Notes under the pieces: model-generated | Databases searched by the model: none | Told to the model about the DNA's origin: nothing | Seen by the model: the letters and a program-made list of their open reading frames with translations, nothing else | Shown: piece by piece, positions 11,309 through 40,600 of the stretch | Layout of the letters: each line of letters opens with the position of its first letter | How positions within the stretch are numbered: the stretch's first letter is position 1 | Program-made: the position numbers and the translations under genes | Assembly: GCA_963402885.1 (NCBI GenBank) | Contig: OY727102.1 | Coordinates: forward strand, 1-64,000 | Length of the DNA stretch: 64,000 bases | Source: Antedon bifida | Taxonomy: Eukaryota > Echinodermata > Crinoidea > Comatulida > Antedonidae | Direction of reading: 5' to 3'

Positions 11309-14020
11309 TTAACAGCATTTACTCTTTTCTTTATTTCTGTCTTGAGAAGGATCCACATAGTTTGTTGCTTGCGTGTTATTAGACACAGGATACTGTAAAA
11401 ATATAAACAATTCTCACTGTTAAATCTAATTAAAATAGTACAGTACCTGTATGTAACTATAAAGTTACTGGAAAACAATACTGTGGGTATCAGTGGCTGG
11501 ATCTCAATGTAGAAGATTTTCTGCTGTTTTAACATTGTTTGAATTTGAATAAAAACCAATAATGATTTATCAAAGTACACTACCATAGTACACTACTGAC
11601 ATTGTAGTTATAACCGTATGTCTATACTAGAGACACTGTAGTACTGAAATAGTCATCTTAGTACGGTACCAACACTGTAGTTATAACCGTATGTCTATAC
11701 TAGAAACACTGTAGTACTGAAATAGTCATCTTAGTACGGTACCAGCACTGTAGTTATAACCGTATGTCAATACTAGAAACACTGTAGTACTGAAATAGTC
11801 ATCTTAGTACGGTACCAGCACTGTAGTTATAACCGTATGTCTATACTAGAAACACTGTAGTACTGAAATAGTCATCTTAGTACGGTACCAGCACTGTAGT
11901 TATAACCGTATGTCAATACTAGAGACACTGTAGTACTGAAATAGTCATCTTAGTACGGTACCAACACTGTAGTTATAACCGTATGTCAATACTAGAGACA
12001 CTGTAGTACTGAAATAGTCATCTTAGTACGGTACCAGCACTGTACAGTACAATTTCCAGGTTCAAAGTACTAGAAATGAAAAACAGTAGAAAGAGCAGAT
12101 TTTAAAATACTAAATTCTTAATCTTACCTTTTTAAGAATATCTTCTGCCAGTGTCATAAAAGCTGGTTCTACATTAATATTCGTCTTTGCACTTGTCTCC
12201 ATAAACTTGATACCATTCTCTCGTGCAATCTACAACATTATTAACAATAATTACTGTAGTTAACACAGTACACTACTGACACTGTAGTTAACACAGTACA
12301 CTACTGACACTGTAGTTAACACAGTACACTACTGACACTGTAGTTAACACAGTACACTACTGACACTGTAGCTAACACAGTACACTACTGACACTGTAGT
12401 TAACACAGTACACTACTGACACTGTAGTTAACACAGTACACTACTGACACTGTAGTTAACACAGTACACTACTGACACTGTAGCTAACACAGTACACTAC
12501 TGACACTGTAGTTAACACAGTACACTACTGACACTGTAGTTAACACAGTACACTACTGTCACTGTAGTTAACACAGTACACTACTGACACTGTAGCTAAC
12601 ACAGTACACTACTGACACTGTAGTTAACACAGTACACTACTGACACTGTAGTTAACACAGTACACTACTGACACTGTAGCTAACACAGTACACTACTGAC
12701 ACTGTAGTTAACACAGTACACTACTGACACTGTAGTTAACACAGTACACTACTGACACTGTAGTTAACACAGTACACTACTGACACTGTAGTTAACACAG
12801 TACACTACTGACACTGTAGTTAACACAGTACACTACTGACACTGTAGTTAACACAGTACACTACTGACACTGTAGTGAGAGTACAGCACTGACACTGTAG
12901 TGAGAGTACGGCACTGACACTGTAGTTAACACAGTACACTACTGACACTGTAGTGAGAGTACAGCACTGACACTGTAGTGAGAGTACAGCACTGACACTG
13001 TAGTGAGAGTACAGCACTGACACTGTAGTGAGAGTACAGCACTGACACTGTAGTGAGAGTACAGCACTGACACTGTAGTGAGAGTACAGCACTGACACTG
13101 TAGTGAGAGTACAGCACTGACACTGTCATAGTAAGTCAATAGCAATTTTTATCGCTGTCCTATATATTGTACAGGCGACATCCACACAAGATGTTATAAA
13201 CAAATGCTCACAACAACCCAACAACCACTTGATTGGCCTAAAAAGTAGAGATAATGAAGCAATTATAAGAGTAGAGTATATTACTTACAGATTGTCCTCT
13301 TTCAGTGCTCACCATTCGTTTGTCATTCATATCACATTTATTACCAAGTAACATCTTTTCCACATCTTCATTTGCATGCTATTTACAATTGAAAACAAAA
13401 TCTGAATTAAACACTAAAATGTTAAATGTAATACACAGAAAATTGACACAGTTTACAATGTAATATTCTTCAAAAGATAATAAATAAATATTAGGAAATG
13501 CTTTTATTAAAAGAATAACAATATTAATAATCAAACATTATATAGCGCCAATTCCAAAAGGATTATCAAGTGTGCATTGTATCCTGAAATCTGCTAAATA
13601 AATAAATTTCAGTGGGTGAAAGTTTTACAAAATGTGGGAGTTTGTTCCAAAGAAAGGATGCAACAAAAGAGGAGAATCGTAAGTCTTAGTCCAGAAACAG
13701 GGAACACATTTTAGATACCAATGATTTGTTAGAGGAGAAGGCGACGATATGGAACAAGAAGTTGGGTGATATAAGATGGACGGAAAAAAATGTATTTGAG
13801 AAGCTAGTGATGAGACATACTTCCTGGATGTTCCTTAACCATTTTGCAATGTTATCAAATGTTTTCTCTTGTGTAATATCATAAACCAGCATAATTCCCA
13901 TTGCACCTCTGTAATAGGAGGTAGTGATTGTGTGGAATCGCTCTTGGCCTGCTGTGTCCCATATTTGTAGCTTAATCTTCTTCCCATTCAACTCAACTGT
14001 CTTGATTTTAAAGTCTATAC
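11309..14020 (-). CDS. RAB10: RAB10 common exons (shared C-terminal 158 residues)
   Basis: These four exons are the only ones in the locus that encode G3 to the C-terminus. 14020-13821 (200 nt) starts in phase 1 with the end of switch I (G-IDFKIKTV), then WDTAGQERF and the switch II region. 13378-13289 (90 nt) carries NKCDMNDKR. 12229-12128 (102 nt) carries [12 protein letters not shown]. 11392-11309 (84 nt) carries the divergent hypervariable tail ending in KSKCC and a TAA stop. Lengths add exactly to 67+30+34+27 codons once a single G from a first exon is added. Any of the six upstream exons supplies that G. Confidence 0.93.
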
Positions 14021-17000
14021 CTGTTAAGATAAAAATGTATTATAGTTGTTAGCATTCTTTCTACTATCTTTTTTGACAGCGACCCCGATTCTAAATCATG
14101 AATTCTTCTTTCATAAAATGGATACGCAAGTTAGTACGACAGAAATAGCAGGGTCATACTGTATCAACACACAGTTGATTATGTTTCAGACCTAATCTCC
14201 AACAATGGGTGTCCAGAAATACAATCCTAATTAAACTAAAATTAAATACCCAATATTTAGAATGTTCGAAAAGCCAGAAATTGCACTCTTATAATTCTAC
14301 CAATGTAAAAATAATTTAAAAGTTTGCTGCACTTTTTACAAAACTTTAGAGAGGTAGAAATATGGATCTTTTCTATTTCTATTTATTTGGTGTTTGTTGC
14401 CAAACATCAGAACCATGGAACCAGTTGAAGACGATCAGGTGGGAAATTATCAGGCCCAACAATTTTGTAGATTTCCCACTTGCAGTTATCAAACTATGCG
14501 CATACCATATTGAGAATTTGCTCATAAAAAATAACAAGATAAACAAGAAATATACATCTCTAATCCTTGTATTCAATAAAGATAATTGTGAGTAAAGACG
14601 TTTAGCCATTCCCACGAGCATCAAAACACAAAGACTATTGGGTCCAAGGAATAAGACAATGGGACCCAACACAGAAGGTGATTCGGCCCATGAAATAAGT
14701 GCTTGTGGAACGTATGAGTTTAGAATCTAGAAATGAGGTTCTTACCAACAGTAGGTACACGTGATTCACACACATCATTCTCTCCATTCAAAAATTTAGC
14801 TACCAAACTAGATTTTCCAATAAAACTGTCACCAACAATGATAATTTTAAACATGTAATCAAATGGTTTAGATAAGCCATTCCATTTTGCATTCAAATCC
14901 ATGTTGTCTACAGTTTTAGTAAGTTTTCAAGTACACTTGAATTTACTACGAAGTAAATACAATTAATTTGGTACTAAATTCCAAACAATCCTTTAGATCT
15001 AATATTTCCAACTGAAATGTGGTTGTAACACAGGTGAAAAGGTGGTGTTATTTGGTCCTTTGATATAATCAAAGCCCTTTGACCCTGTTGCCCTTTGGTC
15101 AGTAGAATTAAAGTCTGTTGATCCAGTTGGTATAATCAAAGTTCTTTGGTCCTGTTAATATAATCCAATGCAATGTTGTTGGTCCTCTTTGGTTTGTTCT
15201 TTGATCTTATTCTCTTCTATAATTCTTATTGGTATATCTTCTTTGGAATTCTTCTACAGTAATTACTGTACATCCACTTATTGTGATTATTTCAGCTCCA
15301 GAATGTATTTAATATGTCCTGATGCCTTGAACTAGTATTTAAGAGATGAATCAAACCTGGGTACTGATTTTCAAATGTGTAACTGCTGAAACATGTGTGG
15401 TATCTGCCTTTTTGTTCTATTGATGACATAATACAGTGTACATTGTGACTAAAAGAAAAGGTGTTCTATGACCCTGTTAACCAAACACAGCTATAATAGA
15501 TAACAATAGATAACAATAGAAACCTTCACAATACCAGACCAAAGTAGCCTCTCAGTGGCAACATATTGAATTAACAATTAACTGCTCTCAAGAATTTGTT
15601 TTGTTCAATTTAACTACAAAAATAAATATATTGTAAAGGTAAATTATATTTTCATCATTTACTCAGCTCCCTTTTTAAAAGTGGAGGCTTCCATTTCGTC
15701 ACACCCCAAAACAAATATCTTATCTTGATAAATATAGACAGAAGATAAGTAGTTAAAATGCATGTACTTTGAGCACTGCAACAATAATCATGCTTTGCTT
15801 TCAAAGTGTAGGACATTAACCACCGGACGGACGGAGAAAATAACCACCAGAACATTAACCACCCATAGTGGACACTACCATTGTTAAAGTGGGGTAATGC
15901 ATGTACTTTGAGCACTGCAACAATAATCATGCTTTGTTTTCCAAAGTGTATGACATTAACCACCGGACGGACGGAGACAATAACCACCAGAACATTAACC
16001 ACCCATAGTGGACACTACCATTGTTAAAGTGGGGTAATGCATGTACTTTGAGCACTGCAACAATAATCATGCTTTGTTTTCCAAAGTATAGGACATTAAC
16101 CACCGGACGGACGGAGACAATAACCACCAGAACATTAACCACCCATAGTGGACACTACCATTGTTAAAGTGGGGTAATGCATGTACTTTGAGCACTGCAA
16201 CAATAATCATGCTTTGCTTTCAAAGTGTAGGACATTAACCACCGGACGGACAGAGACAATAAACACCAGAACATTAACCACCCATAGTGGACACTACCAT
16301 TGTTAAAGTGGGGTAATGCATGTACTTTGAGCACTGCAACAATAATTGTCGTGAGGTAATTTCCCGATTGATCGTATTCAAACCGGTACTGGGTTTGGTC
16401 TACTAGCGTTCCTGCTCCCAACCAGTACATCCATTCATAGAAGCCTTAATGAAGTAAGCCTACCTGGTGGTGGCCATAGAACGGTCCAGAGATAACGACT
16501 ATACTTTGGCTTTAGTCGATAGAAGATTGAAAAAATGGTTAGAGATAGAGTATACGATGTTTGATTATGTGTAGATGTGTGATTTGTTCTTTTATTCAAA
16601 TGATGTTCTGCATAAGAAACGGAGATAGTAGTTGGGTATAATGATTTTTTATATCAATTAATTAAATTATCATAGATTGTATATTATGCGTTAGGCCTAA
16701 ATATTTTTTAATACATTTTTGATATATTATTATTATTATTATATTAATAAAAAGATATTTGTTAGTATAAATTTTAAAAATAAAGAAGAAAAGCTTTTCT
16801 TCTTTATATCTATATTTTTTAAATTTATACTAACAAATATATCAAAAATGTATTAAAAAATATTTAGGCCTAAATTACGATCAATCGGGAAATTACCTCA
16901 ATTACCTACAAAACGTCACAAATTGTAGGGAAGGTGTCTTTAACCACCCATAGTGGACACTACCATTGTTAAAGTGGGCGGGGAAGACAATGATGGGCTC

Positions 17001-20000
17001 TAGGATGGTTTTTTCCTTAAACACCTCAATCATTTTGAAATTCCACTTTTATGATTCTGTGTACAGTAGATGTATGTTTATTATTTTGTGTTTTAGTAGA
17101 ACTGACAATAGGAAATAATTCTTTTCACAACATGCCTATATTAGTATCGGGCAAGTTTGCCAAGTCCAGTTTGCGCATAAACAATGAAAATCCGGGTAGC
17201 TAATGTCCGACTTTCAAGTTACATTTAAATCATTTATTGAACAACATCTATTTAACATTTCATAATGGAGTGATCATGGTCTGCTCTCAACACTGTACAA
17301 ACTTGTATTATAATAAAGCTATAACCCAAAGTTCAAGTTGATTGAATTGTCAGCCCAGCCATTGATGTTTATTTATACAGTATTACTGTGACTTTTACAA
17401 ACAACAATATCAAGAAGTTATAATAAATCAAAGACTAACAATGACATAACTACTGTACTACCAGGAAACTGAGTACTTACCTATAGTTGTTAAGTTTGTA
17501 AACTCGTAATCATCATAGATATACTTAAACATGATAGACGTTTTGCCAACAGTTGAGTCTCCAAGTAACATCAATTTAATGATAGATTCCCTCATGTTAG
17601 AGGCTTAGCCTCTGGCCAGCTTACCTCAAACTATAATGCCATGGTCATGTTTATCTTTGTACTCGGTTAAAACCAGTTTTCATTGCTTCCAGTTTTACTA
17701 TTATACCAAACACCAGCCAGCTAATCAATGTTGGGATGGTATATTATAAAAAACCATTCAACTATAACTCTTTTGACAACCACTGGTTTTTGTGATACAA
17801 TTGTTTGATGATTTCACTAGGTATATACTACTACTACAATGTGAGAAGAGGAAGCATTCCACAATAATAGTTTGAGGTAAAGCAAACAGTGGCATATCAA
17901 ATCAGGCGATATCAAATCTCAAAATCTACACAATTCTTGATAGTGTTTAGTACTGTATACTGAAACAGACTACAGGCTTATTTCTTTTTATTTTAAGAAT
18001 AATGATTTTGTTTGTACAGTATATTATGCATTTCCTTTATTACTTTACTTGACATCCTATATTATTGCTACTTTTAAATACATGGTACATGACCCTTCCT
18101 GCCTGCTATTATGTTACAATATTATGACCTTGTCCGTAGTGTAAACATGACTATGATTGGTTGTCTAATACTACATATCCCAATAACAAGTTATTTATTG
18201 TACTTAAATTAGGTTTAATTCTCAGATAGGCTGACAATAATAAACATACATTATTAATTTAATATTTATTTTAATTTTATTTTAATTGTTTGTCTGTTAC
18301 ATTGTCATGTCGAATTGTATTGTTAACTGAGGGTCCCCAATGATTATCTTTGGGCGCTGCTGGATGGACCATCTTCTTGTTAACTGAGGGTCCCCAATGA
18401 TTATCTTTGGGCGCTGCTGGATGGACCATCTTCTTGTTAACTGAGGGTCCCCAATGATTATCTTTGGGTGCTGCTGGATGGACCATCTTCTTGTTAACTG
18501 AGGGTCCCCAATGATTATCTTTGGGCGCTGCTGGATGGACCATCTTCTTGTTAACTGAGGGTCCCCAATGATTATCTTTGGGCGCTGCTGGATGGACCAT
18601 CTTCTTGTTAACTGAAGGTCCCCAATGATTATCTTTGGGCGCTGCTGGATGGACCATCTTCTTGTTAACTGACGGTCCCCAATGATTATCTTTGGGCGCT
18701 GCTGGATGGACCATCTTCTTGTTAACTGAGGGTCCCCAATGATTATCTTTGGGTGCTGCTGGATGGACCATCTTCTTGTTAACTGAGGGTCCCCAATGAT
18801 TATCTTTGGGCGATGCTGGATGGACCATCTTCTTGTTAACTGAGGGTCCCCAATGATTATCTTTGGGCGATGCTGGATGGACCATCTTCTTGTTAACTGA
18901 GGGTCCCCAATGATTATCTTTGGGCGCTGCTGGATGGACCATCTTCTTGTTAACTGAGGGTCCCCAATGATTATCTTTGGGCGCTGCTGGATGGACCATC
19001 TTCTTGTTAACTGAGGGTCCCCAATGATTATCTTTGGGTGCTGCTGGATGGACCATCTTCTTGTTAACTGAGGGTCCCCAATGATTATCTTTGGGCGCTG
19101 CTGGATGGACCATCTTCTTGTTAACTGAGGGTCCCCAATGATTATCTTTGGGCTCTGCTGGATGGACCATCTTCTTGTTGAAATAAAGAAATAAAATAAG
19201 AGATAATGTTCCATATTTGTCTCTTAGAACGACTAAATGAAAAATGTTAACATTACATGTCTGTCGCTTTATAATACTGTACTTTCACTTCTGGATTCAC
19301 ACCCTCTCACTTTAGTTTTTCATGTTCAAAATAAGGTGTGCTTTATTTGAATTCAACTGTACGTAAACCCCATTTTAGAACAATCAACCAAATGAACAAT
19401 ATTTACAATGATCCATGGGTAATACTACACCAAACCACTACATCTGATTCTCACATTTAATAAATAGATTATTTTGCGTACTGTAAAATGATTAGGGCAA
19501 CCAAAAACTACATTTTGATTCTCAGGTTTAATAGATTATTTAATGTACTGTACTGTAAAATTATCCATGTAATAGAGTAACCTGCTACATTTTGTTTCCA
19601 AGGTTTAAAGCAATGAGTTTCATCAGTGTTAGCCATGTACTACAGTAATACTAGGCTAACTCTCTAGATTTTAGTCTACTAACTGTAGTACACTTGACGG
19701 TCAATTAAACATTTTCAAAATGATCAAAATTATCAATTACATTACACAATAAATTATCTTACCTATCTGAATTTCAATACCAGAAGGTCGGAAAATATCC
19801 CGGCTAAATCGATCAAGAATACAAGATTTACCAACACTTGAATCGCCAATAATTATTAATTTTAAGAGTTTGTCGTAAGGTCTACAATTTTGACCCCACT
19901 CACGGCTAAGTTGGAAAGTCAAGCTTCCCTTCTGTCTATTATCATACATACTGAAATTTACTTGTTTACAGTATTTCAATATTTGTCTCCATTGTTGGAA

Positions 20001-23000
20001 TTGTATCATCCATCAGTGTATAAACAAACTGGAATCCAAAATTATTGTTCATGTTTTTTAAATGAATAGTGCACACAAAAAAGAGTTCCAAATTGTAACA
20101 AATCCACAACACAGGGCACACTGCTTCCTAAAATAATATCACATGAAATTGAAGATTTCTACCACTTCAAACAACATGACCTGTTGTAGCCATCGTCGTC
20201 GCTGCCGATAGAAGGCACTACATTCATTTTTGGTATCAAATGACAAAGCTCCACAGCAGGATACTGTTTCTTAAAGTGAACAGATTGTGTTATCAGTAGG
20301 AACACCACTAAACTTGATGATATACAGGAAATAAGTACTTTTGAAGATCCTGATTATATTTTGCTAGAAGGAAACAACTACATGTGTCATACATAGTACA
20401 TTGCTTAAAAATAACTTGCAGATAATAATAATCAAACCATTATGTTGACATTGGATGTTTATGAGTAATTAATTATGTAATTTAAATTCTGCAATCCACT
20501 TTGAAGCTGCTGTGTACTGTATTTTCTTGTTGGTAAAGGCTGACACACTAGACACCACCACAAACATAAATTGACACACAGTGTCAAATTATAAATGTCA
20601 ATAAAGTAGGCGAACACATTTATTTTTTAGTTTGCTACTTCATTTTTTTCCAAATAATAAATTAAAAACAATTGAGACTAGGGACACACAGCAATACTCT
20701 CTGTATATAATCATTATACTTTTTTGTTGAACAACACAAAGCAGGAAGTACGTTGTCTTAAAATAAAGCCAAATATTTAATAATATTTGAAATTAAAATG
20801 TAATGTAAAGCACAGACTCTAAAATCTCAAATGTCCACGTTTGAATCACATTAAATAGTCTTTAATAGTGGCCAGCATGAGACAAATATTGAATAATAAA
20901 AAGTCTTATTTAGAATTGTGTATTCTCTGCATCCTCCCTTTAATATTCAGTAAATTCTTAAAAACTTATGAATCCATAAATGCACAAATTGTGTTACTTA
21001 CCGATTGTAGTAAATGGGTTTATACAATGTCTATCAAAAAATCTCATTATTAAGCTAGATTTTCCAACAATTGAGTCTCCAATCATAAGCAAACTTAAAA
21101 TCATTTTTATTTTAAGATTTCCACTGATACTGATAGTATCTATTCTAAGCTGTATAGTATTCTAGTGTAGACTAATTGAAAATCCCCATAAACAAAGCTG
21201 TTTTGGTTTTGAAAGTAAAACTAACAATGAAAGTTATCTTGGCCAATAAAGCAACTAAATCATGTTTCATACTAAACTTCATTACTACAGTATGAATGTA
21301 ATTATTGACCTTTGACATTTATTATTTAATGTAGGACATGTTGGCCAGGTATTTTGTTAGGCTATTACAGTAGTATGACCAGGTTTAGTTGGCCTAACAC
21401 AGTTTAGTAGGCCTGTATTCTGGTCAAGCACATAATTTACTGTAGGACATGTTGGCCAGGTATTTTGTTAGGCTATTACAGTAGTATGACCAGGTCTAGT
21501 TGGCCTTTTGGCTATAATTATTTATAAGGCGCCAAGAACGACCAGAGCGTCGTACAGTACATCAAATAATTGGCCAAGGTCTAGTTGGCCGAACACATAG
21601 GCCTATAGCTAGCCAAGAATACATAAAATTCAACTATAGAGCACACCATTTTATTTCATAAAATACTGTAGAATCTGAAAGTTAATTTTCTAAATAGTAC
21701 TCCAGTGCAAACACCCAATTAAGACTGGTTGAGTCATATGACAATGACATTGATTAATACGTACATGTAAACTTGTTCTAAATGGCTCTCTTCTAAAACC
21801 AGGGAGTTGTTAATGTTAACTAATGTTAATTGTACAGCAAATTCTGATATTGTATTCATGTAAAAAAAAAACAGATTTAAGTTGTATGGAAACATTAGTG
21901 TGATTGTTACCAGGGTAACGGCATCATAATTGATGAGACCATGCACAGTTGTCTATTGACTTCAGTAAATATAGTTTATTTAATATAGTTTTATATTTTT
22001 ACAAAAAGTGTATTGAAAATTGATATAATATTTTGTAATAATATACATACATACCAATTGTAGCCACAAAATCAAAGCTAAACTCATTCTCAGTAAATCG
22101 ACGTACTAAGCTGGATTTCCCAATAGTTGAATCTCCTACCATTAAAAATCTAAATAAATGATCATAATCTTTACGGTTCTTGTCCTTCTCCACCATTTTA
22201 CAAGCATCAAAAGTCAATATGACAAAGCTACAGTACTATTATTAAACTGTTGTCAAATTCTTTCCCATAAGGAAGTCATTGTTTTAACATTCTGCAAAGC
22301 AACTCCACAAAATATGATCATAACTTTAAAACTTCCGATTGTTAAAGTTTCTTCCGCACCAACAAATTCTATCAGGTTCTGCACTCAACATGGGAATAAG
22401 ACCCTGACCTTATTTACCTCATCCTGTTAACCTATGACCTTAAGTACCAATTGCTAGAATAAAAAAGCTGAGACTGAAGTTATATTAATAATGACACAGC
22501 AGACAATAGTGTATCTACCAAAACTGAAACTTATAAACAGGAAATGAACAAAATGATAAGCAAGTATTATTTAAAATCACAAACAGGAATTCTCCAAGTG
22601 TAAGGTCAACATGGATTCATCTGTGGTGATTGTGCATTACTGTATTTCCTTTCATTATTCAGGTAAAATACGATTTACAAAAAAAGAGTACAAAAAAAAG
22701 GGGAATCTAATTTCAATGGAAAATGACTAGGCCAACTTGTGTCATTTAATTGATGACCAGTGACATATTTTAAACCGTATCATCCTACACAGTATTAAAT
22801 GCTTCTATAGCAGTCCTTCCTACACAAATTTAAATGAAATATAAAACACATTCTGAATTATTGATGATATTAATAATGTATTGGAATATAAACATTGGGA
22901 ATTGGAAACTACTACCTGTTAATATATATATATATATTGAAAGCAATTGTTACTTATATAATTACACACATAGGCACAACTTGAGTAAGAACTACAATAC

Positions 23001-25152
23001 ATTTAGAACTTTGGTCTAAAGCAAAGAGTTATCAAGAACACAAATTAGAGGGCGCCAAACACCAAATATCACTAAACATATATAAATTCAGAGAACCTGG
23101 AACTACCTACCCTAACCTACTTTTATTCACTTTGCCAGATACAGTCTGGTAACACAACAGACTTTTACATAGAATAACAATACCACTTTCAAATGGAACT
23201 CTGTAGTGATTCTTCGGAGGCACCTCTGAGAAACCCCAGGGATGGTGACCATTCATATCAACAAGAAACTGATGGATGAGAAATGAAAAGGTTTACAGAC
23301 ACATTACCCACAATTTATTGGATATACAGTTTCTTTACAATACTCATCAATCAAACTTCTTATGGAATATGTTTTTTTTACACTGGATAATAAAGAAGAT
23401 AAGTGAAAACATTAATCAAGGATCATAAAATCATAACATTTTGTTTACAGTATTTCAAAATAATGATCTAAAATTGATAGCTATAAACTATAGAAGGGGT
23501 GTATGTCAGTTTAACAACATTTGTTTATACCACCTAGTACCAGGTCGAGGAGTAAGAGTGTTAAAACTGCCAATTATACTGATCTATAGTTTTAATTTAA
23601 TCTAGATTATACAACCTACAGATTCCTGTTCATATGATTCAGTTCATTTATATGCCCGTCTATCATTAAAGACTTGGAATCGACCACATTGTGATTGGCC
23701 TCCACTGTTCATCAGATTCAGTTCATTTATTGTCCCATCTACCATTTTAGACTTGCCGTCGACCACATTGTGATTGGCCTCCACTGTTCATCAGATTCAG
23801 TTCATTTATTGTCCCATCTACCATTTTAGACTTGGTGTCGACCACATTGTGATTGGCCTCTACTGTTCATCAGATTCAGTTCATTTATTGTCCCATCTAC
23901 CATTTTAGACTTGGAATCAACCACATTGTGATTGGCCTCTACTGTTCATCAGATTCAGTTCATTTATGTGTCCAATCTACAGTACCAATGTAAATGTAAA
24001 ATCCAAAGTCTCACTTTGGTCCCAGAAAACGGATTTTAGGCCGCAAAATAAAGGTTTTTTGCTGAACGCTGCTCTAAAGAATACTACTACATGTACAATA
24101 TAGTTTAATAAATAACATAGCTCAATGTTATATAAATCAAAAATTAAAATAAAAGTGTATAGCATGGTATAAACGTAGATCTCCAGTTACACATCAGCAG
24201 TGAAGTCAACTGATTGATACTGTTCAATGACAGCCATATGTCTTCAGAAAAAACCGGCTACAAAAAAACTGAAAGTAACTATAGTAGCATCTCAGCAGCA
24301 TTGCCAGTATTTATTTTTGCATGTTTTTGTATGTTGATTTGATTCCATTTGCAATAAACGAATAAGAATTACTTACTTGTATACATTTTAATTTAATTTT
24401 TCACTGTACTCTGCTACTGTATGATGAGTTAATACGCTACCATAATATGGTAATAGTTTAATTTGAAGTATTTAAAATCTAGATAGATTCGTACTTGTTT
24501 CACAAAATTTTTTTATTTACAAATGTTAAGGATACCTAACGATACCATAACGTAAACACTGTATCTAAAAACAATGGCAATGGCCTGTCAACACAGGAGG
24601 TGGACTGTCTAGTAGTAGTACTATCTAGCCTAGGGCCTAGCCTTAGGTGAACCCTCTTAGTTAGGTCGGCCCTAGCTAGGCCTCTAGGCTAGGCCTAACT
24701 ACGCCTAGCCTAGGTCTATCTATTTTTAGGCTAGCCTAAAAAATAATTATTATTTTAAAAATTAAAAACACTTTGTAGCCTATGCTATTGTTGATTGTTT
24801 TACCAATTCAAATGATTTTGTAGTGGCAAATGCCAAAGAGTTCTTATTTTGTTCGTATACAGTATATGATTGCCAGTCGGAAAACGTTCAGGTAAGGGCG
24901 TGATCGCCTCGCTATACGACGTACTTTATGTCTTTTCCACCCTTTTTTCACCATACCTCTCCGCTTATGTAGGCTAGCCTTCTTACTATTAAAACTGGGC
25001 CTAGAAAAAGTGATAGGAACCTTACCTATAGTTGATATAAACGTTGTGTTAAAGGTGTCGTCCGAAAACCTGAACAATATACACGTTTTTCCTACACCAG
25101 AATCTCCAATAAGTAGAAGTTTAAACAACAAATCATAGGTTTTCTTTGCCAT
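11309..25152 (-). CDS. RAB10: RAB10 small GTPase, canonical isoform (exon F plus four common exons)
   Basis: Exons in transcript order: 25152-25026 (F), 14020-13821, 13378-13289, 12229-12128, 11392-11309. They join in frame into 200 aa, the length of vertebrate RAB10. Visible elements: N-terminus [19 protein letters not shown]-loop GDSGVGKT, switch I ending FISTIG, G3 WDTAGQ, the switch II stretch TITTSYY (site of LRRK2 phosphorylation in mammals), G4 NKCD, G5 ETSAK, and C-terminal KSKCC for double geranylgeranylation. RAB10 directs exocytic and endosomal membrane traffic. The first intron is about 11 kb and contains five further P-loop exons (A to E) that can replace exon F. All introns have GT/AG ends. 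The introns are unusually rich in minisatellites. Confidence 0.93.
11599..12044. repeat. 73-bp minisatellite, 6 units, in the last RAB10 intron
   Basis: Units share TAACCGTATGTCTATACTAG and CATCTTAGTACGGTACCA, with G/A and T/A variants that differ between units. The array lies between the last two coding exons. Confidence 0.9.
12254..13127. repeat. 28-bp then 25-bp minisatellite in a RAB10 intron
   Basis: About 22 copies of a 28-bp unit (TGTAGTTAACACAGTACACT then ACTGACAC) pass at about 12868 into about 10 copies of a related 25-bp unit (TGTAGTGAGAGTACAGCACT then GACAC). One 28-bp unit sits inside the 25-bp block. The array fills most of the intron 12230-13288. Confidence 0.92.
14021..14745. 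other. Intron between RAB10 exon A and the common exons
   Basis: No coding signal is recognised. Open frames on both strands at 14362-14672 lack motifs. Confidence 0.5.
14746..14902 (-). CDS. RAB10: RAB10 alternative first exon A
   Basis: Starts at an ATG preceded by an in-frame TGA. It encodes 52 residues plus one base, ending CCTACTGTTG followed by gtaag, the same phase-1 donor as canonical exon F. P-loop is GDSFIGKS, preceded by [11 protein letters not shown], which aligns with [11 protein letters not shown] of RAB10. The switch I loop is two residues longer than in F and ends in PTVG, keeping the G2 threonine. The N-terminus has a 10-residue extension ([10 protein letters not shown]). 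The predicted isoform is 210 aa. It is nearest to the common exons. Expression is inferred, not seen. Confidence 0.82.
15761..16345. repeat. 140-bp tandem repeat, just over 4 units, in a RAB10 intron
   Basis: Units begin CATGTACTTTGAGCACTGCA at 15761, 15900, 16040, 16180 and 16319 (partial). They contain ACCACCGGACGGACGGAG and CCATAGTGGACACTACCATT. A further fragment of the unit reappears at about 16941-16976, beyond an inserted element. Confidence 0.92.
16353..16899. mobile_element. Foldback/MITE-like element with 24-bp terminal inverted repeats
   Basis: A perfect 24-bp inverted repeat joins 16353-16376 and 16876-16899 (contains TTTCCCGATTGATCG). Inside it a larger AT-rich inverted repeat spans 16693-16871, its arms meeting near AAGAAAAGCTTTTCTT. 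There is no transposase ORF. The element interrupts the last unit of the 140-bp tandem array. Confidence 0.7.
17481..17595 (-). CDS. RAB10: RAB10 alternative first exon B
   Basis: The ATG at 17595 follows an in-frame TAA twelve bases upstream. The exon encodes 38 residues and stops at ACTATAG followed by gtaagt, phase 1. P-loop is GDSTVGKT and switch I ends FTNLTTIG, the same length as canonical. The N-terminus is short ([11 protein letters not shown]), lacking the KTYD segment before strand beta-1. Joined to the common body it gives 196 aa. The exon is under 120 nt and falls below usual ORF length cut-offs. Confidence 0.8.
18318..19180 (-). repeat. 57-bp minisatellite, 15 units, open in frame (19-residue peptide repeat)
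   Basis: It lies in the intron between RAB10 exons B and C. On the minus strand each unit reads [19 protein letters not shown], making a 297-codon open frame (18277-19170). A second frame is also open. Because 57 is divisible by three and the unit lacks stops, openness alone is not evidence of coding. No known domain is present, so I list it as a repeat. Confidence 0.85.
19763..20009 (-). CDS. RAB10: RAB10 alternative first exon C (extended N-terminus, altered switch I)
   Basis: The first ATG after an in-frame TGA is at 20009, giving 82 residues plus one base before a phase-1 gtaaga donor. About 38 extra residues precede the conserved [12 protein letters not shown] segment; an internal ATG (MYDNRQ) would shorten this. 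P-loop is GDSSVGKS. Switch I ends GIEIQIG, one residue longer than in F, with glutamine where RAB proteins carry the Mg2+-coordinating G2 threonine. The predicted isoform is 240 aa. The missing threonine predicts altered GTP binding or an always-off form, if translated. Confidence 0.75.
21002..21104 (-). CDS. RAB10: RAB10 alternative first exon D (shortest)
   Basis: The ATG at 21104 is the first after an in-frame TAG. The exon encodes 34 residues plus one base and ends ACAATCG followed by gtaagt, phase 1. P-loop is GDSIVGKS. Switch I ends NPFTTIG and is one residue shorter than canonical. The N-terminus is only MILSLLM before the P-loop, so strand beta-1 starts at the initiator methionine. 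Joined to the common exons it makes 192 aa. Confidence 0.75.
21331..21500. repeat. Direct duplication, offset 111 bp
   Basis: A segment beginning GTAGGACATGTTGGCCAGGT occurs at 21331 and 21442, inside the intron between RAB10 exons D and E. Confidence 0.8.
22055..22196 (-). CDS. RAB10: RAB10 alternative first exon E
   Basis: The ATG at 22196 (AAAATGG context) begins [20 protein letters not shown], aligning with [15 protein letters not shown] of exon F. An open frame reaches slightly upstream but contains no other ATG. P-loop is GDSTIGKS. The interval from P-loop to TIG is exactly the canonical length, ending DFVATIG. The donor is gtatgt in phase 1. The predicted isoform is 205 aa. Of the five alternatives this looks most like an intact conventional RAB N-terminus. 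Confidence 0.82.
22197..25025. repeat. Intron between RAB10 exons E and F, with a 79-bp minisatellite at about 23636-23965
   Basis: About four to five units sharing GATTCAGTTCATTTATTGTC and ACCACATTGTGATTGGCC recur every 79 bp. The rest of this 2.8-kb intron shows no further P-loop exon or other coding signal that I can recognise. Confidence 0.8.
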
Positions 25153-31600: not shown

Positions 31601-34600
31601 CCAACAATGGTGTAACCTCCACAGCAACGTAACCACCGACAATGGTGTAACCTCCACAGCAACGTAACCACCAACAATGGTGTAACCTCCACAGCAGGTA
31701 ACCACGTACCGGCTAACAGGGTAACCACCAGTAGTCTTAACCACTGGCTAAAAGGTGTACCCACCAGCAACGCAGTTTCACAACCACAGGGTGTACCACG
31801 GGCTAACTGTATCTCAAGCAGTAACACAACCAGTAGGTGCAACCTCCGGCTCAGCTATCTCAAATAGTGATACAACCAGTACAGTAGGCGCAACCTCCGG
31901 CTCACTATGTCTCAAATAGTGATACAACCAGTACAGTAGGCGCAACCTCCGGCTCACTATGTCTCCAACAGCAGCACAAGCGGTAGGCTGTACCCTCCGG
32001 CTAACTTACCTGCTGTGTCTTAACTCTCCTTTTATTATTCAGCTCTAATTTTCTCTTTCTTTTCTCTAATCTTCTCTACACTTTGTTTTCCAATTTCTCT
32101 AATGTCCCTACTTTTTTAACACGTCTTCTCCCTGCTTCTCCGCTTTTCCAGCTCCAATATCTCCCTCCTTTTTAACGCAGCTCGAGGTAACCCTCCATTG
32201 CCTTCCTTCTCCAATCCCTCTCTGCCCTTTTTCTCACGTCCGTTCTCTGCTACTCTTCCTGCCTAACTCTGCCTCCATCTGCCGCCCTCTATCTTTTCCT
32301 TCTACCCCAAAATCATTACAGTATCTTCAAATTTAAAATATTTTTCCTTTTGGAAATATTGTAATGATTTTGGGGGAGAAAAGATAGAGGGCGGCAGATG
32401 AGCAGGGAGTTGAAAAGGAGGAGAAGCAGAGAGCAGACGTATAAATAATAGTAGAGATTTAAAGAGATTGAAAAAACAAAGTGTCAAAGAGAAAACTAAA
32501 GTGGAGTAATAAAAAGAGAGAATTATAGAAACAGTAAGTAGTAAGTGTAATTTATCTCGTGATTTCTTGTTACAAAAAGAGTGAGAAAGTTACAGGTTAG
32601 CCCGAGGCTACGCTCGCTGTTTTGTATTGGAGGTTACACCCTTGTTGGTGGTTACGTTGCTGTAGAGGTTACACCATTGTTGGTGGTTACATTGCTGTGG
32701 AGGTTACACCATTGTTGGTGGTTACGTTGCTGTGGAGGTTACACCCTTGTTGGTGGTTACGTTGCTGTGGAGGTTACACCATTGTTGGTGGTTACGTTGC
32801 TGTGGAGGTTACACCCTTGTTGGTGGTTACGTTGCTGTGGAGGTTACACCATTGTTGGTGGTTACGTTGCTGTGGAGGTTACACCATTGTTGGTGGTTAC
32901 GTTGCTGTGGAGGTTACACCCTTGTTGGTGGTTACGTTGCTGTGGAGGTTACACCATTGTTGGTGGTTACGTTGCTGTGGAGGTTACACCATTGTTGGTG
33001 GTTACGTTGCTGTGGAGGTTACACCATTGTTGGTGGTTACGCTGCTGTGGAGGTTACACCATTGTTGGTGGTTACGTAGCTGTGGAGGTTACACCATTGT
33101 TGGTGGTTACGTTGCTGTGGAGGTTACACCATTGTTGGTGGTTACGTTGCTGTGGAGGTTACACCATTGTTGGTGGTTACGTTGCTGTGGAGGTTACACC
33201 ATTGTTGGTGGTTACGTTGCTGTGGAGGTTACACCAATTGTTGGTGGTTACGCTACTATTTGAGGATACGTCATTACTGGTGGTTACGCTGTTGTTTCAA
33301 GTCCGGCGTAATAGCAGAACTAATTTAATTATTAATTATTATAATTGGTTGTTACAAATAATTTGGAATCATAGAAGAATAAAGGAGGTCACTCCACAAG
33401 TTGTAATTGATTTGTTTGTTTCATTCGAGTGTACCGTGGTACCGCAGACCCTTCCCCAAAGGGAACGAACCCGAGAACGGATTTTCGTTACATTGGTGGC
33501 AGCGGTGGGATTGGTCGTGTTGCGGAAGGAATTACTCACACGATGGAACAATTACAAGAGTCATTAGATGCTATCCAGAGGGAGATAAACCGACTGGAGA
33601 ACGAGGTGACGGACATGGACCCGGCGCAGCCGTTAAGCTCCAGTATTGGACACGGCTCCCCGCCCCAGAGGAGTACTGGTGGTAGCGGACGTGCACCTTT
33701 AGAGAGAGATAGTTCGGAACAGAGGGCGGAGGAAACCGATAGTCTGGAGATATTAGGGTCCCCTGTTGGACAGTCAACAGGAAAGAGAAGGTCGCAGCCG
33801 ACCGAAGTTGACACCTTTACTCCACCATGGCCGTTGACCCGGGAACCAAGGATAAGCGGAGCAGAAGCGATGCAGAAGAGGTTTGGAAAGAACCTCCGAT
33901 GCCAGAGACCAGTCATACATCCCGATAGGTTTGAAGGAAAGGCGCCTTGGAGGGATTATCTCCAACACTTTCGGGCCTGCGTGGAGGCGAACGGATGGAC
34001 GGAGGAACAAGCTGGAGCATTCCTCAAAGCCAGCCTAAAAGGACCAGCCTTGAAGGTATTGGCTGTGGCCCCAGAGCGGGAGTTAACCTACGTAGAACTG
34101 ATAGCGGCCTTGGAACACAGATTTGGTCCAGAAAAGAAAACAGAAAACTTCCTAATGGAACTGAGACTCAGGAGACAGAAACCCAACGAGACATTACAAG
34201 AGCTTGGGCAGGCCATCCGAGAGTTATCCTACCTGGCATACCCGGAATTTCCAGAAGCAGGAGTAGAACGGTTGGCAAAAGGACACTTTAGCGACGCCGT
34301 GGGGAGAGCAGAGATTAGAGAAGGAATCTTCAAAGCGTCTCCGGCCACGCTGGATGATGCCCTCAGAGCAGCGCTATCCACGGACAGTTTCCTCAAGCTG
34401 GAGGAGCAACGGAACCCACGAGCACCCCCGAAATACCTACGGCCAATCACAAACGAACCTCGACAAAGGCAGGACGATTTTGAAGAAAAAATGGGGAGAT
34501 GGATGGCCCAGGTAGAGGCACGCATGCTACCCCGCTCGACAGAACAGCAGACAACGAGGAGGAGGGATAAACCATGGGAAACAAGAGAAGAAAGACAGGA

Positions 34601-37600
34601 GAGATTGCGTAAGACTGTCTGTTATAATTGCCAACAGAAGGGCCATCTCGCCAGACAGTGCCGAAATAGAGCGACGGACTCGGGAAACGAAGAGCAGCCG
34701 ACTCAAGGGGTCGAGAGGAGGCTGGAAGAGATCGAAGGCCCAGTGAACCAAAGAGAAAGAGGAGCTACTCCTCCACCCAAACCACAAACCACACCTCCAC
34801 CCAGACAGTAAACCAACTTAAAAAAACAGAATACTCCAAATACCACCCTAGCGAAGGCCTATACGTAGGAGCCACTGTCAACGGGACGAGAACAACACTA
34901 CTGGTCGATACTGGAGCGTCGGATACAGTCCTATCATCCCGATTGTACTACGAAATACCGACGGAACGCCGACCGGAGCTCAGACGGGATTCTCGAGAAT
35001 GCCAACAAGCGGACGGCAGTCGTTTAAACACTATAGGACGTACCTGGGTAGGATTACAAGTTGGCCACACTTTTAGGGTGACGGAAGTGGTGTTCGCAGA
35101 TTTAAAAGTTTTGGGAGTACTGGGGATGAATTATCTCCTAGGCACAGGAGCGGCACTAGACCTTGGTAGGCTACAAATGAAGGTGGGTGGAGAGGTGATC
35201 GAACTGCTGGGATCTGATGAGACACGGTTCTCGCCTAACATAATCGTACGGGACACTTCTGTTATCCTGCCAGGGCACGAACACATAATTCTGGGAATGA
35301 TCCAGTCACAACCTACCGACACGGAGACAGGCCTGATAGAGCCGGATCGTGAAGGAGAACTAGCCGGACAAGGACTCATCATGGCCAGAACGCTAGTGAA
35401 TGCAAAGCAACAGGCGCTACCACTACGAATCTTTAATCCAGGTGGTGAAAAGAGGGTACTACGCGCTGGGACTAAAGTCGGAAAGCTGTATCCGGTATCT
35501 GCAGACCAGGTCGAAGCTAATGCCCTTCATCCGGAGGACCCTGAGCCTAGCCAGCGACTTTTCCCAGAACACCTGGTGGACCTCTTAAGCCGAAGCGTAA
35601 CCGATTTAGAGCCGCAATACCACAGGCAGGTGGCGTCTTTACTAACTAGGTTCCAAGACGTCTTCTCGGAAGGAGATTCGGACCTGGGAAGGACGAATAA
35701 AGTAAAACACCACATTGACGTTGGAACTTCTCGGCCCGTCAAGGAACAGCCAAGACGCCAGGCGGCAGAAGCCAGCAAGGAGATAGAACGTCAGGTCGAG
35801 GACTTATTAGGGAGAGGACTCATCGAACCTTCGGACAGCCCGTGGGCGTCAAACGTCGTATTGGTCACTAAGAAAGACGGCACCAAGCGGTTCTGTGTGG
35901 ACTACCGGCGGCTGAATTCGGTTACGATCAAGGACGCTTACCCAATCCCTAGAATCAATGACTCCTTAGATGCGCTTTCGGGTGCCAAATGGTTCTCAAC
36001 ACTGGACTTGGCTTCAGGATATTGGCAAGTGGAGTTAGATGACGATGCTAAGGATAAGTCCACGTTCACCGTGCGAGGCGGCTTATATCGTTGGAAGGTA
36101 ATGCCATTTGGACTCTGCAATGCCCCTTCTACGTTCGAGCGGCTCATGGAACGGGTGCTGTCCGGTTTGCAGTGGAAGGTACTTCTTGTGTATTTGGATG
36201 ACGTGATTGTTTATGGAAAGACGGTGGAAGAAGAGATCGACCGCCTGGAGGAAGTGTTTTGCCGCTTACGAACGGCCGGATTAAAATTAAAGCCCAAGAA
36301 GTGCACCTTATTTAAACAGGAGGTCTCGTACCTCGGACACCGAGTCTCCCATACCGGGGTGATGACCGATCCTGAGAAGATAGAGTCTGTAAAGGAATGG
36401 CCAACGCCAACCACCGTCCGGGACGTTCGTAGCTTCTTAGGATTGGCGTCCTATTATAGGAGGTTCATAAATGGATTCGCATCCATAGCCGCCCCACTGC
36501 ACAAATTGACAGAGAAGTCCAGACGATTTTCCTGGGACCCGGAGTGTGAACAGGCCTTTCAAGAGTTAAAGGACCGATTAGTACAGGCACCAATTCTCGC
36601 TTACCCTCGCCCCGAGGGACGTTTCGTTCTCGACACCGACGCGAGTGACGTTGGCATCGGCGCTGTATTGTCCCAGGAACAGGACGGAGAAGAACACGTA
36701 ATATGTTACGCGAGTCGGACTCTAAGTAAGACGGAGAGAAACTATTGCGCTACACGCCGAGAATTGCTGGCCGTAGTGACTTACCTCAAACACTTCCGAC
36801 AGTACCTGTATGGACAATCAATCACAGTACGCACGGACCACGCCTCCCTGCGTTGGTTGACGAGTTTCAAAGAACCCGAAGGACAGCTTGCCCGGTGGCT
36901 CCAAGTGTTAGGAGAATATAATTTTAAGATCGTCCACCGTCCCGGATTAAAACATGGCAATGCAGACGGGCTGTCCAGAAAACCGTGTGTGCAGTGCGGA
37001 ATTGACGAGACGATGGCGAGGAAGAAAGAGCTGGCCTGGAAGGCAGTAGAAGTGGAGATGGAAGAAGCAAGGGAACGGTCCTCGTTACGGCTGGTCCAAT
37101 TTCAGCCGACGTGGAAGAACGCAGACATCCGACAGTCCCAGATGACAGATGATGCCATTCGATGGGTCATGGGATTCCTAGAGAGAGGGGAGCCCCGACC
37201 AAAGTTCGAAGAGATCGCCGGGTTGCAAACTGATTATAAGAGTTACTGGCAGAACTGGAACCTGTTGGAAGTAAGAGATGAGGTGTTATATCGCCGGTGG
37301 GAATCCGACGATGGCAAAGAGATAACCTGGCGACTGGTGCTTCCTGAAGCAATGAGGTCTACGGTTCTCGAAGAGCTCCATGGAGGAAGGACTGGTGGAC
37401 ACTTGGGAGTGGCTAAAACTACCGGAAGGTTGGTCCAACGTTATTTCTGGCCAAAAATGGGTGCCTGGGTCCGGAGTTGGATACGTAAATGCGACGGTTG
37501 TGCTCGGCGGAAGACACAACCAAGAAAGAAGGCCCCCCTCCAGCAACAACCCGTAGGAAACCCTATGGAAAGGGTTGCTATGGACATATTAGGCCCACTG

Positions 37601-40600
37601 CCCGAGACCGACAGAGGTAACAAATACATTCTAGTCGTAGGTGACTATTTTTCTAAATGGATAGAAGCATACCCTATCCCCAACGAGAGGGCGGAAACCG
37701 TTGCGAGATGTTTCGTGGACAATTTTGTTTTGCGATTCGGAGTTCCTCGACAGCTCCACACCGATCAGGGGAGGAACTTCGAGTCTGACCTAATCAAGGA
37801 GTTGTGCAAGATATTGGGAATAGACAAGACTCGGACGACGCCCTATAATCCCAAATCAGACGGGATGATCGAGAGGTTCAACCGCACTTTGGTCAACATG
37901 GTGGCGATCATGATAGAACCCCACTGTAACCAAAAAGACTGGGATGTTCACGTGCCGTATGCCACGTTTGCATATCGATCCACTCCGCATGCCTCGACGG
38001 GAGAGACACCAAACATGATGGTCCTTGGGAGAGAGGTTGCCCTTCCTGTTGATTTGACAATGCCAATAATGGAGACAGAAGACAGAGAAATGAAGACCGA
38101 CTACGCAGAGCAGTTGAGGGCAAGGCTTCGGGCGGCCCACGGGAGAGCCAGAGAAACGCTTAAGAGTAGTGCCCGCCGTCAGAAGGCGACTTATGACCAG
38201 AAAGCCCGGAAGCAGGATCTCGAGATAGGGAAATATGTATGGCTATATAATTCGGCGAAAACTGTAGGGAAATCGCCGAAACTTCAATGTAAGTGGCATG
38301 GGCCATACCTAATTATAACGAAACTATCTGAGGTGGTGTACCGCATCCAAGAGGGACCGAGGAAGAAACCAAAGGTCGTGCATGTGGACCGACTGAAACC
38401 TTATGAGGGTGAGGAGATCGCCCGCTGGGACATCCCCCCCGGAGACGAGAGTCCGTTGGCTCGGGTGGCGCAGGAAGCCTTTGCCGAAGGTAACGAGACG
38501 CCAACAGTCCCGGAAGAAGTAGACGGAGAACTCCAACGTCCCGAAACGCCTGAACAAGGCCCGTTGCTTACTATCCCAGAGGAGCCCGGCGATCGGGGCA
38601 ATACGCCTGTACCTCAACAAACCCCCCCAGAGGGAAGGTATCCCAGGAGACGTGTAAGGCGGAGGCCGGCACGTTACGAACAATAACCAGCTATGTTCTC
38701 TTGCCGTTTGTTTTTGGTGATTATTTTGGATTATTATCGGGGACCGATCATTTTAGGAGGGGGGTGATGTAATGATTTTGGGGGAGAAAAGATAGAGGGC
38801 GGCAGATGAGCAGGGAGTTGAAAAGGAGGAGAAGCAGAGAGCAGACGTATAAATAATAGTAGAGATTTAAAGAGATTGAAAAAACAAAGTGTCAAAGAGA
38901 AAACTAAAGTGGAGTAATAAAAAGAGAGAATTATAGAAACAGTAAGTAGTAAGTGTAATTTATCTCGTGATTTCTTGTTACAAAAAGAGTGAGAAAGTTA
39001 CAGGTTAGCCCGAGGCTACGCTCGCTGTTTTGTATTGGAGGTTACACCCTTGTTGGTGGTTACGTTGCTGTAGAGGTTACACCATTGTTGGTGGTTACAT
39101 TGCTGTGGAGGTTACACCATTGTTGGTGGTTACGTTGCTGTGGAGGTTACACCCTTGTTGGTGGTTACGTTGCTGTGGAGGTTACACCATTGTTGGTGGT
39201 TACGTTGCTGTGGAGGTTACACCCTTGTTGGTGGTTACGTTGCTGTGGAGGTTACACCATTGTTGGTGGTTACGTTGCTGTGGAGGTTACACCATTGTTG
39301 GTGGTTACGTTGCTGTGGAGGTTACACCCTTGTTGGTGGTTACGTTGCTGTGGAGGTTACACCATTGTTGGTGGTTACGTTGCTGTGGAGGTTACACCAT
39401 TGTTGGTGGTTACGTTGCTGTGGAGGTTACACCATTGTTGGTGGTTACGCTGCTGTGGAGGTTACACCATTGTTGGTGGTTACGTAGCTGTGGAGGTTAC
39501 ACCATTGTTGGTGGTTACGTTGCTGTGGAGGTTACACCATTGTTGGTGGTTACGTTGCTGTGGAGGTTACACCATTGTTGGTGGTTACGTTGCTGTGGAG
39601 GTTACACCATTGTTGGTGGTTACGTTGCTGTGGAGGTTACACCAATTGTTGGTGGTTACGCTACTATTTGAGGATACGTCATTACTGGTGGTTACGCTGT
39701 TGTTTCAAGTCCGGCGTAATAGCAGAACTAATTTAATTATTAATTATTATAATTGGTTGTTACAAATAATTTGGAATCATAGAAGAATAAAGGAGGTCAC
39801 TCCACAAGTTGTAATTGATTTGTTTGTTTCATTCGAGTGTACCGTGGTACCGCAGACCCTTCCCCAAAGGGAACGAACCCGAGAACGGATTTTCCTACTA
39901 CAACTACAGTATGAGCAATAAATCAAAGGATGCTTGTATTGACTTTGGCCAATGTCATTATAACAACTGACATTAAAAAGAATAATTTGGAGAATGCTTG
40001 AATGACGCTTAAAATTACAAGACTAAATTTACAACTGAAGAAGGAAATAATAAGTATTTGGTTAAAACCTCAAATGACCAACTGAAATTGAATTTAAAAT
40101 CAAATTTGTAAATCCAAAATATATATTCTCTATAATAATGGAAAGCAATATAATAGAGTGTTGTTTATTTTTTGGTTGTTACTGATGATCATTATTATTT
40201 TATTTTCATATGTATTTTAAGTAAATTAAAATCACAAATTACAAATTTAGGTTAAAATAATTTTAGTTGTTATTGTTTTTTTATGTATATATCACATTCA
40301 CATATGATTACGATGATGAATCATTTTTCTTATTGTTTTAACATACAAATGAACACTATAATACAATACATACATCAAATTCATCTGTTGTTCCTGGTTG
40401 GAATTTGGTTTGTCTGTCTTGACCTAACACTTCTGCTTCAGAACATGACTCAGTACCAACTACAGTCAAAGTCATTTTACCAATTTCTTTTAATTCAGAA
40501 CTCTCTCCAGTAGTTACAATTAACTTCCAGTTACCATCTACAAAATAATGTTAATTTGACAGCTAAAATGACATTATGAACTATGTTTTGATATCTTTTT

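Follow-up and report, generated by a model that had tools for sequence, protein, structure and literature searches.

The window, a 64-kb stretch of Antedon bifida DNA (contig OY727102.1, positions 1 to 64,000), carries a single Rab10 gene, which lies on the minus strand and reads toward the telomere. The common part of the gene consists of four minus-strand exons: exon 2 (13821-14020) with G-IDFKIKTV and switch II, including the threonine at Rab10 position 73, exon 3 (13289-13378) with the guanine-recognition motif NKCDM, exon 4 (12128-12229) with ETSAK, and exon 5 (11309-11392) with the C-terminal tail, ending in KCC and a stop codon. Joining first exon F (25026-25152) to 14020-13821, 13378-13289, 12229-12128 and 11392-11309 gave a Rab10 protein of 200 amino acids. 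The best matches of isoform F among solved structures were Rab-10, at 339 and 331 bits, followed by Rab-8A at 307 bits, and over its full length this isoform, the only one compared, was nearer to Rab10 than to Rab8.

Five further first exons, E, D, C, B and A, sit between exon F and exon 2, all on the minus strand. Exon F is the canonical Rab10 first exon, with ISTI in switch I and the donor GTAAGG. Exon E (22055-22196) encodes GDSTIGKS, keeps switch I and ends with the donor GTATGT. Exon D (21002-21104; GDSIVGKS, donor GTAAGT) has no RabSF1 Tyr-Asp, exon C (19763-20009) encodes GDSSVGKS and ends with GTAAGA, exon B (17481-17595) encodes GDSTVGKT, reads TTIG in switch I and ends with GTAAGT, and exon A (14746-14902) encodes GDSFIGKS and ends with GTAAGA. 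Each of the six is open in one frame, has a length of 1 mod 3 and ends in a phase-1 donor, and in-frame stops lie 2 to 25 codons upstream of the ATGs. The start of exon C is ambiguous, with a stop 2 codons upstream and two in-frame ATGs before the P-loop. The sequence-only reading had described six minus-strand exons with an ATG, GDSxxGK(S/T), a phase-1 donor and an open frame each, and all of these were found again at the coordinates given there. It had also assigned a switch I to every exon; the stretch is present in all six, but exon C reads IQIG in place of STIG, so that the switch-I threonine is replaced by glutamine. The distance between GK and the exon end also varies: A has two additional residues there and C one, and D is shorter by one residue.

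The locus thus has a variable-first-exon layout: several first exons with their own ATG, that of C being uncertain, and the same phase precede one constant set. The predicted isoform lengths in the window are 240, 210, 205, 200, 196 and 192 amino acids for C, A, E, F, B and D, respectively. The P-loop is present in all six isoforms, G3 to G5 and the CC end are common to them, and the full protein of isoform A matched Pfam Ras with an E value of 5.8e-63.

In six frames of the window, the pattern GDS..GK[ST] occurred six times, always at exons A to F, and not once in 60 dinucleotide shuffles, and a chance origin of the P-loop matches was rejected on this comparison. A looser P-loop pattern also gave six matches, whereas the shuffles averaged 0.25 and never gave more than 2. 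The window was further searched by tblastn with ten first-exon queries from two crinoids, two starfish, a brittle star and an urchin. Nine of the ten queries matched all six places, and Anneissia X2 matched five, missing B. No seventh first exon was found in the window with these queries, the three further matches being 13 to 17 residues long with E values of 0.15 to 0.50; a search there for further first exons like those of Anneissia X2 and X5 gave no first-exon match beyond the six places.

The whole assembly (315.6 Mb, 27 contigs) was searched with the four tail exons, and the best 150 of 169 candidates were scored, a depth at which a weak copy could be missed. Within this scope the tail exons matched the present locus at 79 to 94% identity, no other place gave more than 71%, and the next-best-scoring exon-2 match was 57% identical; no second Rab10 tail was found at any other place. 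This agrees with the single set of G3 to G5 and C-terminal exons claimed from the letters. No tail match with E <= 0.001 lay between the first exons, and no second close copy of exon E appeared in the genome search.

Ten other GTPase loci, identified from plus-strand first-exon matches, were scanned over about 11 to 15 kb upstream of each, a scan in which diverged P-loops could be missed. Each of the ten had one pattern-matched P-loop exon, and extra P-loop first exons as a general habit of this genome were not borne out. At C1:6695000-6725000 there is a tandem cluster of three genes, Rab8-like by their motifs as judged by eye. Of these, the first gene has two P-loop first exons with phase-1 donors, a canonical-looking one (6698883) and an additional one upstream of it (6697243), and the other two have one P-loop first exon each. 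A close relative of Rab10 may thus have a small version of the same design.

As for the surroundings of the gene, the window is the end of the contig. Positions 1-1553 are telomere-like (CCTAAC)n, about 100 copies of CCCTATAC follow up to 2330, and the end of Rab10 is about 9 kb away. Minisatellites lie in the Rab10 introns at 12253-13104 (28 bp x 31), 11603-12044 (73 bp x 6) and 18320-19179 (57 bp x 15), the last of which keeps a 335-codon open frame. An LTR-type retroelement, probably of the Ty3 type, occupies 32563-39918, with zinc-knuckle and protease-RT-RNaseH-integrase frames, and has a 35-bp tandem array on either side, the two arrays being alike and 6408 bases apart. On the minus strand at 28031-55799, PLAT domains were found in four tested open frames and a fibronectin III domain in one; the region probably holds at least one PLAT-repeat gene, and the retroelement is located among these frames.

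Protein databases were searched with the first exons and with the common tail. Exon E found the Rab-10-like isoform X4 of Anneissia japonica (P0001) at the top, with 93% identity over 56 residues, and its next matches, at up to 64 bits, were Rab35 proteins and unnamed sequences. A joined query of A, B, part of C and D found isoforms X2 (P0121; exon A identical), X5 (P0125; exon B identical) and X6 (P0124; exon D with two residues different) of A. mediterranea, as well as Anneissia X3 (P0122), in which exon A was 74% identical. None of the 26 matches of this joined query contained exon C, and B and D were not matched by any Anneissia protein among them. The common-tail query found A. mediterranea X4 (P0145), which has the residues of exon F, and Anneissia X2, X5 and X6, the last of which (P0147) also has the residues of exon F. 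A further Anneissia japonica model of 127 amino acids on another contig (P0123), Rab-8B-like, carries an A-type first exon in which GKS of the P-loop has become GKL, has a truncated tail and is probably a decayed duplicate.

Five of the six exons are therefore joined directly to the common tail in models of two crinoid species: A, B, D and F in A. mediterranea and A, E and F in Anneissia japonica. The models are predictions, and each fits one variable exon plus the constant part; alternative models of such an annotation pipeline usually rest on RNA reads. The tail in the window is identical to that of A. mediterranea, and the window isoform lengths fit A. mediterranea X2, X4, X5 and X6 (210, 200, 196 and 192 amino acids, respectively). 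Judged from length numbering only, A. mediterranea X1 and X3, which were themselves not among the matches, would be C and E. Among the isoforms seen, the tails were identical within each species (four of four in A. mediterranea, five of five in Anneissia, and two of two each in Amphiura, Asterias and Acanthaster). The prediction that all products of the locus have switch II, the membrane tail and guanine recognition in common accordingly holds for the models seen, and the alternative isoforms already exist as public database entries.

To place the layout among other taxa, the best 120 of 633 tail matches were surveyed in a database clustered at 90%, which can hide isoforms. By source name 19 of the 120 were echinoderm. 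A first exon with a non-canonical P-loop sequence context is present in 12 of them: A. mediterranea X2, X5 and X6, Anneissia X2 to X5, Amphiura X2, Asterias X1, Acanthaster X2 and X5, and Strongylocentrotus X1. Such a first exon was found in six of the nine listed echinoderm species and four of five classes. Extra P-loop starts on a Rab10 tail are thus present in starfish, brittle star and sea urchin models, three classes beside the crinoids, a spread that the sequence-only reading had not noted. Among the matches listed, Strongylocentrotus had one isoform only, and Patiria, Diadema and the sea cucumber Apostichopus had the canonical form only, with the clustering at 90% able to hide others.

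A P-loop preceded exon 2 in 110 of the 120 listed matches. Sixteen of these scored 21 or less of 38 against the canonical first exon, of which 11 were echinoderm, with the divergent exon joined directly to exon 2, and the other five were vertebrate models with the canonical exon plus an inserted stretch. The next scores belonged to a flatworm protein named Rab-3 (25), Acanthaster X5 (27, mildly diverged), one unnamed protein (27) and three plant RABE proteins (28). The remaining ten were fragments, a Ciona savignyi entry that did not match the exon-2 pattern, and six vertebrate models of Rab10 or Rab-like proteins in which the first exon lacks a P-loop altogether. Predicted alternative Rab10 starts therefore exist in vertebrates too, and those listed have no P-loop. 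The Rab10s of hemichordates (both), amphioxus and Hydra that were read had no non-canonical P-loop start, being canonical or nearly so.

Selection on the first exons, which the sequence-only reading had argued from the kept reading frame, P-loop and splice phase of these diverged exons, found further support. Exon F is identical between the window and Anneissia, which belongs to another crinoid family, exon E differs there at 4 of 48 residues, and exon A differs at about a quarter. The ungapped 23-codon core of three non-overlapping exon pairs was compared (69 codons), and codon positions 1, 2 and 3 were identical in 33, 56 and 30 of the 69 codons, respectively. Drift would favour no single codon position. 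Position 2 was more alike than position 3 (Fisher p 8e-6, and 9e-5 without the eight motif codons), in exons picked by protein likeness, a choice that alone raises agreement at position 2. Selection on the protein is indicated both by the codon-position bias and, more strongly, by the fact that A and E are conserved in a second crinoid family. Because B and D had no Anneissia match, parts of the array appear to turn over faster.

A tree of the first exons was built from about 40 columns with long branches; it is weak and cannot order the exons. The closest partner of crinoid A in the tree was Anneissia X3 (100/100), and this pair was weakly joined by crinoid E (82/85), and Amphiura X2, Acanthaster X2 and Strongylocentrotus X1 were grouped (92/93) apart from crinoid A. 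Exon C grouped with Anneissia X5 without real support (53/0). Two additional switch-I residues, located between GK and the end of the exon, are common to crinoid A, Amphiura X2, Acanthaster X2 and Strongylocentrotus X1, and forcing the latter three together with crinoid A cost 1.6 log-likelihood units, which is no rejection (p 0.25). The best tree speaks against one A-type across classes, a grouping that the likelihood comparison neither rejects nor shows. A derivation of exon E from Rab35 was considered, as most of the named next matches of E are Rab35 proteins, and tandem gene duplication with loss of the tails is a possible origin of the array.

The residues that change with the first exon were compared by eye in Rab10 numbering. 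At position 19, which corresponds to Ras Gly13, exons A to F encode F, T, S, I, T and G, respectively. The Mg2+-binding threonine 41 is kept in A, B, D, E and F and is Gln in C. E and F retain the aromatic residue of position 34, B has Tyr there, and in A and D none stands at the expected place; in C it is Phe if the extra residue of this exon falls after position 34. All isoforms have the same switch II, with threonine 73, the site of LRRK phosphorylation, as well as the same guanine-recognition part and CC tail. In RabSF1, residues Tyr6, Asp7, Leu9 and Lys11 touch Mical-cL, according to the part of PMC5026484 available. By eye, C has all four of these residues, E has three (Lys11 is Arg), A keeps Asp and Lys (with Tyr to Phe and Leu to Met), B keeps Lys only and D has none. 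The isoforms are likely, from these residues, to differ in exchange and effector choice. Not all six need be working GTPases, however: C, without the Mg2+-binding threonine, and D, without RabSF1, may not be. Of the six products expected from one locus, five (A, B, D, E and F) stand on the tail in database models, which supports the sequence-only reading, and none with C was among the matches. AlphaFold models were made for isoforms A and D, from an alignment of 33 rows and with no canonical Rab10 control. Confidence was low over the alternative first exons, with block means of 41 to 60 for residues 1-40 of D and 44 to 58 for residues 1-50 of A, and both models were set aside for fold comparison as too uncertain over exon 1.

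The best explanation of these observations is that alternative first exons form an array and are each joined to the same Rab10 tail, a reading to which we assign a probability of roughly 85%, a figure that excludes the promoter step. Each first exon encodes beta-1, the P-loop and helix 1, together with the greater part of switch I. A transcript starting at one of them would contain its donor and seemingly no upstream acceptor; this first donor would join the exon-2 acceptor at 14020, and the downstream first exons would be removed with the intron. Since the first exons have donors but no obvious acceptors, they would be chosen by where transcription starts, with each first exon transcribed and a promoter presumably lying before each, and the in-frame stops upstream of the ATGs fit a separate promoter per exon. 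One gene would then give a family of Rab10 proteins with common switch II, guanine recognition and double-cysteine tail, whose members would have different nucleotide pockets, RabSF1/SF2 segments and switch I sequences, and so probably different exchange rates and effector choice. The choice step could instead be made by splicing, with the six as mutually exclusive internal exons behind a shared non-coding 5' exon, which is compatible with the rest of the explanation. Exons B and E do have acceptor-like sites upstream, at distances of 238 and 257 bp, respectively, and sDscam clusters combine promoter choice with splicing, as stated in the part of PMC4835542 available; yet six stretches of 600 bp upstream of the exons held two acceptor-like sites against 3.75 expected from the local background, by a criterion that only one of the four true acceptors of this gene meets and that is thus insensitive, and each exon has its own ATG with a stop in frame close before it. 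We regard choice by splicing as unlikely, though it keeps some weight.

Exons A to E could also be decaying, unused left-overs of tandem whole-gene Rab10 duplicates that lost their tails and stayed open by chance. Tandem duplication is seen in the same genome in the three Rab8-like-looking genes, the truncated Rab-8B-like model of Anneissia has an A-type first exon that lost its P-loop serine, and exon C lost the switch-I threonine. Against such decay, frame, P-loop and donor are kept in all six exons, codon position 2 is more alike than position 3, exon E is nearly unchanged in another crinoid family, models splice five of the six to the tail, and no trace of a tail was found between the exons at the threshold given above; this explanation is very improbable. 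Even less credit is due to an assembly or annotation artefact, in which exons of other Rab genes were misplaced at this locus. The locus is subtelomeric and rich in tandem repeats, but the A. mediterranea models come from another assembly, the Anneissia models carry A and E on their own Rab10 tail, and three assemblies agree for exon A. A broader form of the array reading, which we hold tentatively and at somewhat less than even odds, is that echinoderms made Rab10 modular early in their history: a protocadherin-like first-exon array, in which promoter choice swaps the nucleotide-pocket and effector half, would give cell-type-specific forms with different exchange kinetics and the same membrane tail and switch-II threonine. 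Different kinetics are suggested because bulky residues stand at the Ras-Gly13 place, A and D have no base-stacking aromatic, and C has no Mg2+ threonine.

If the array works as proposed, one gene seems to supply alternative switch halves with the membrane address and switch II fixed, in effect a domain swap carried out by nature. With it one could ask to what extent the exchange rate and effector choice of a Rab depend on the P-loop, helix 1 and switch I by themselves, and the array offers an echinoderm molecular trait to date and to follow by cell type. Rab counts at one protein per gene can miss such isoforms. The sequence-only reading had held that no Rab gene with such an array was described. 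In the open-licence literature on Rab exons and on echinoderm or crinoid Rab10, at the level of titles and abstract starts, no description of a Rab10 or Rab variable first-exon array was found, but the isoforms themselves were already in databases. The words "splice" and "isoform" are absent from the main text of the Rab evolution survey PMC3425129, and PMC9741552 contains no occurrence of RAB6A or GTPase.

Whole-gene duplication is known as the main route by which small GTPases diversify, and the closest likenesses to the present layout lie in other gene families. In the clustered protocadherin and UGT1A genes, alternative first exons with their own start codons are spliced to one constant set, and Rab10 resembles them in having several such first exons before one constant exon set. 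The variable exon of these genes encodes an ectodomain or substrate domain, whereas that of Rab10 encodes part of the GTPase fold, split inside switch I. The chelicerate sDscam genes, as described in the part of PMC4835542 available, have tandem 5' cassettes, generally with a stop codon just upstream of each ATG, followed by constant 3' exons. According to the same part of that paper, the cassettes generally comprise two or four exons for Ig domains, with at least 40 copies in one gene, promoter activity was demonstrated for two sDscam beta 6 cassettes, and downstream cassettes can also be joined (PMC4835542). Rab10 shares with them, so far as this source describes them, the tandem 5' variable units, the upstream stop near the ATG and the constant 3' exons; in contrast to the multi-exon Ig-domain cassettes, its units are single exons of a cytosolic switch. 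The G-protein alpha genes, in the part of PMC5896119 available, have duplicated exons mostly as internal pairs, plus the GNAS XL alternative first exon. They are alike in that a regulatory GTPase is varied through exons duplicated locally or through a first exon lying upstream, and unlike in that this part of PMC5896119 mentions no array of P-loop first exons for them. Compared with the Rab8/Rab10 family, as far as the available parts of PMC3425129 and PMC5026484 describe it, exon F and the tail form an ordinary Rab10, and the five extra N-terminal parts in one gene set this locus apart.
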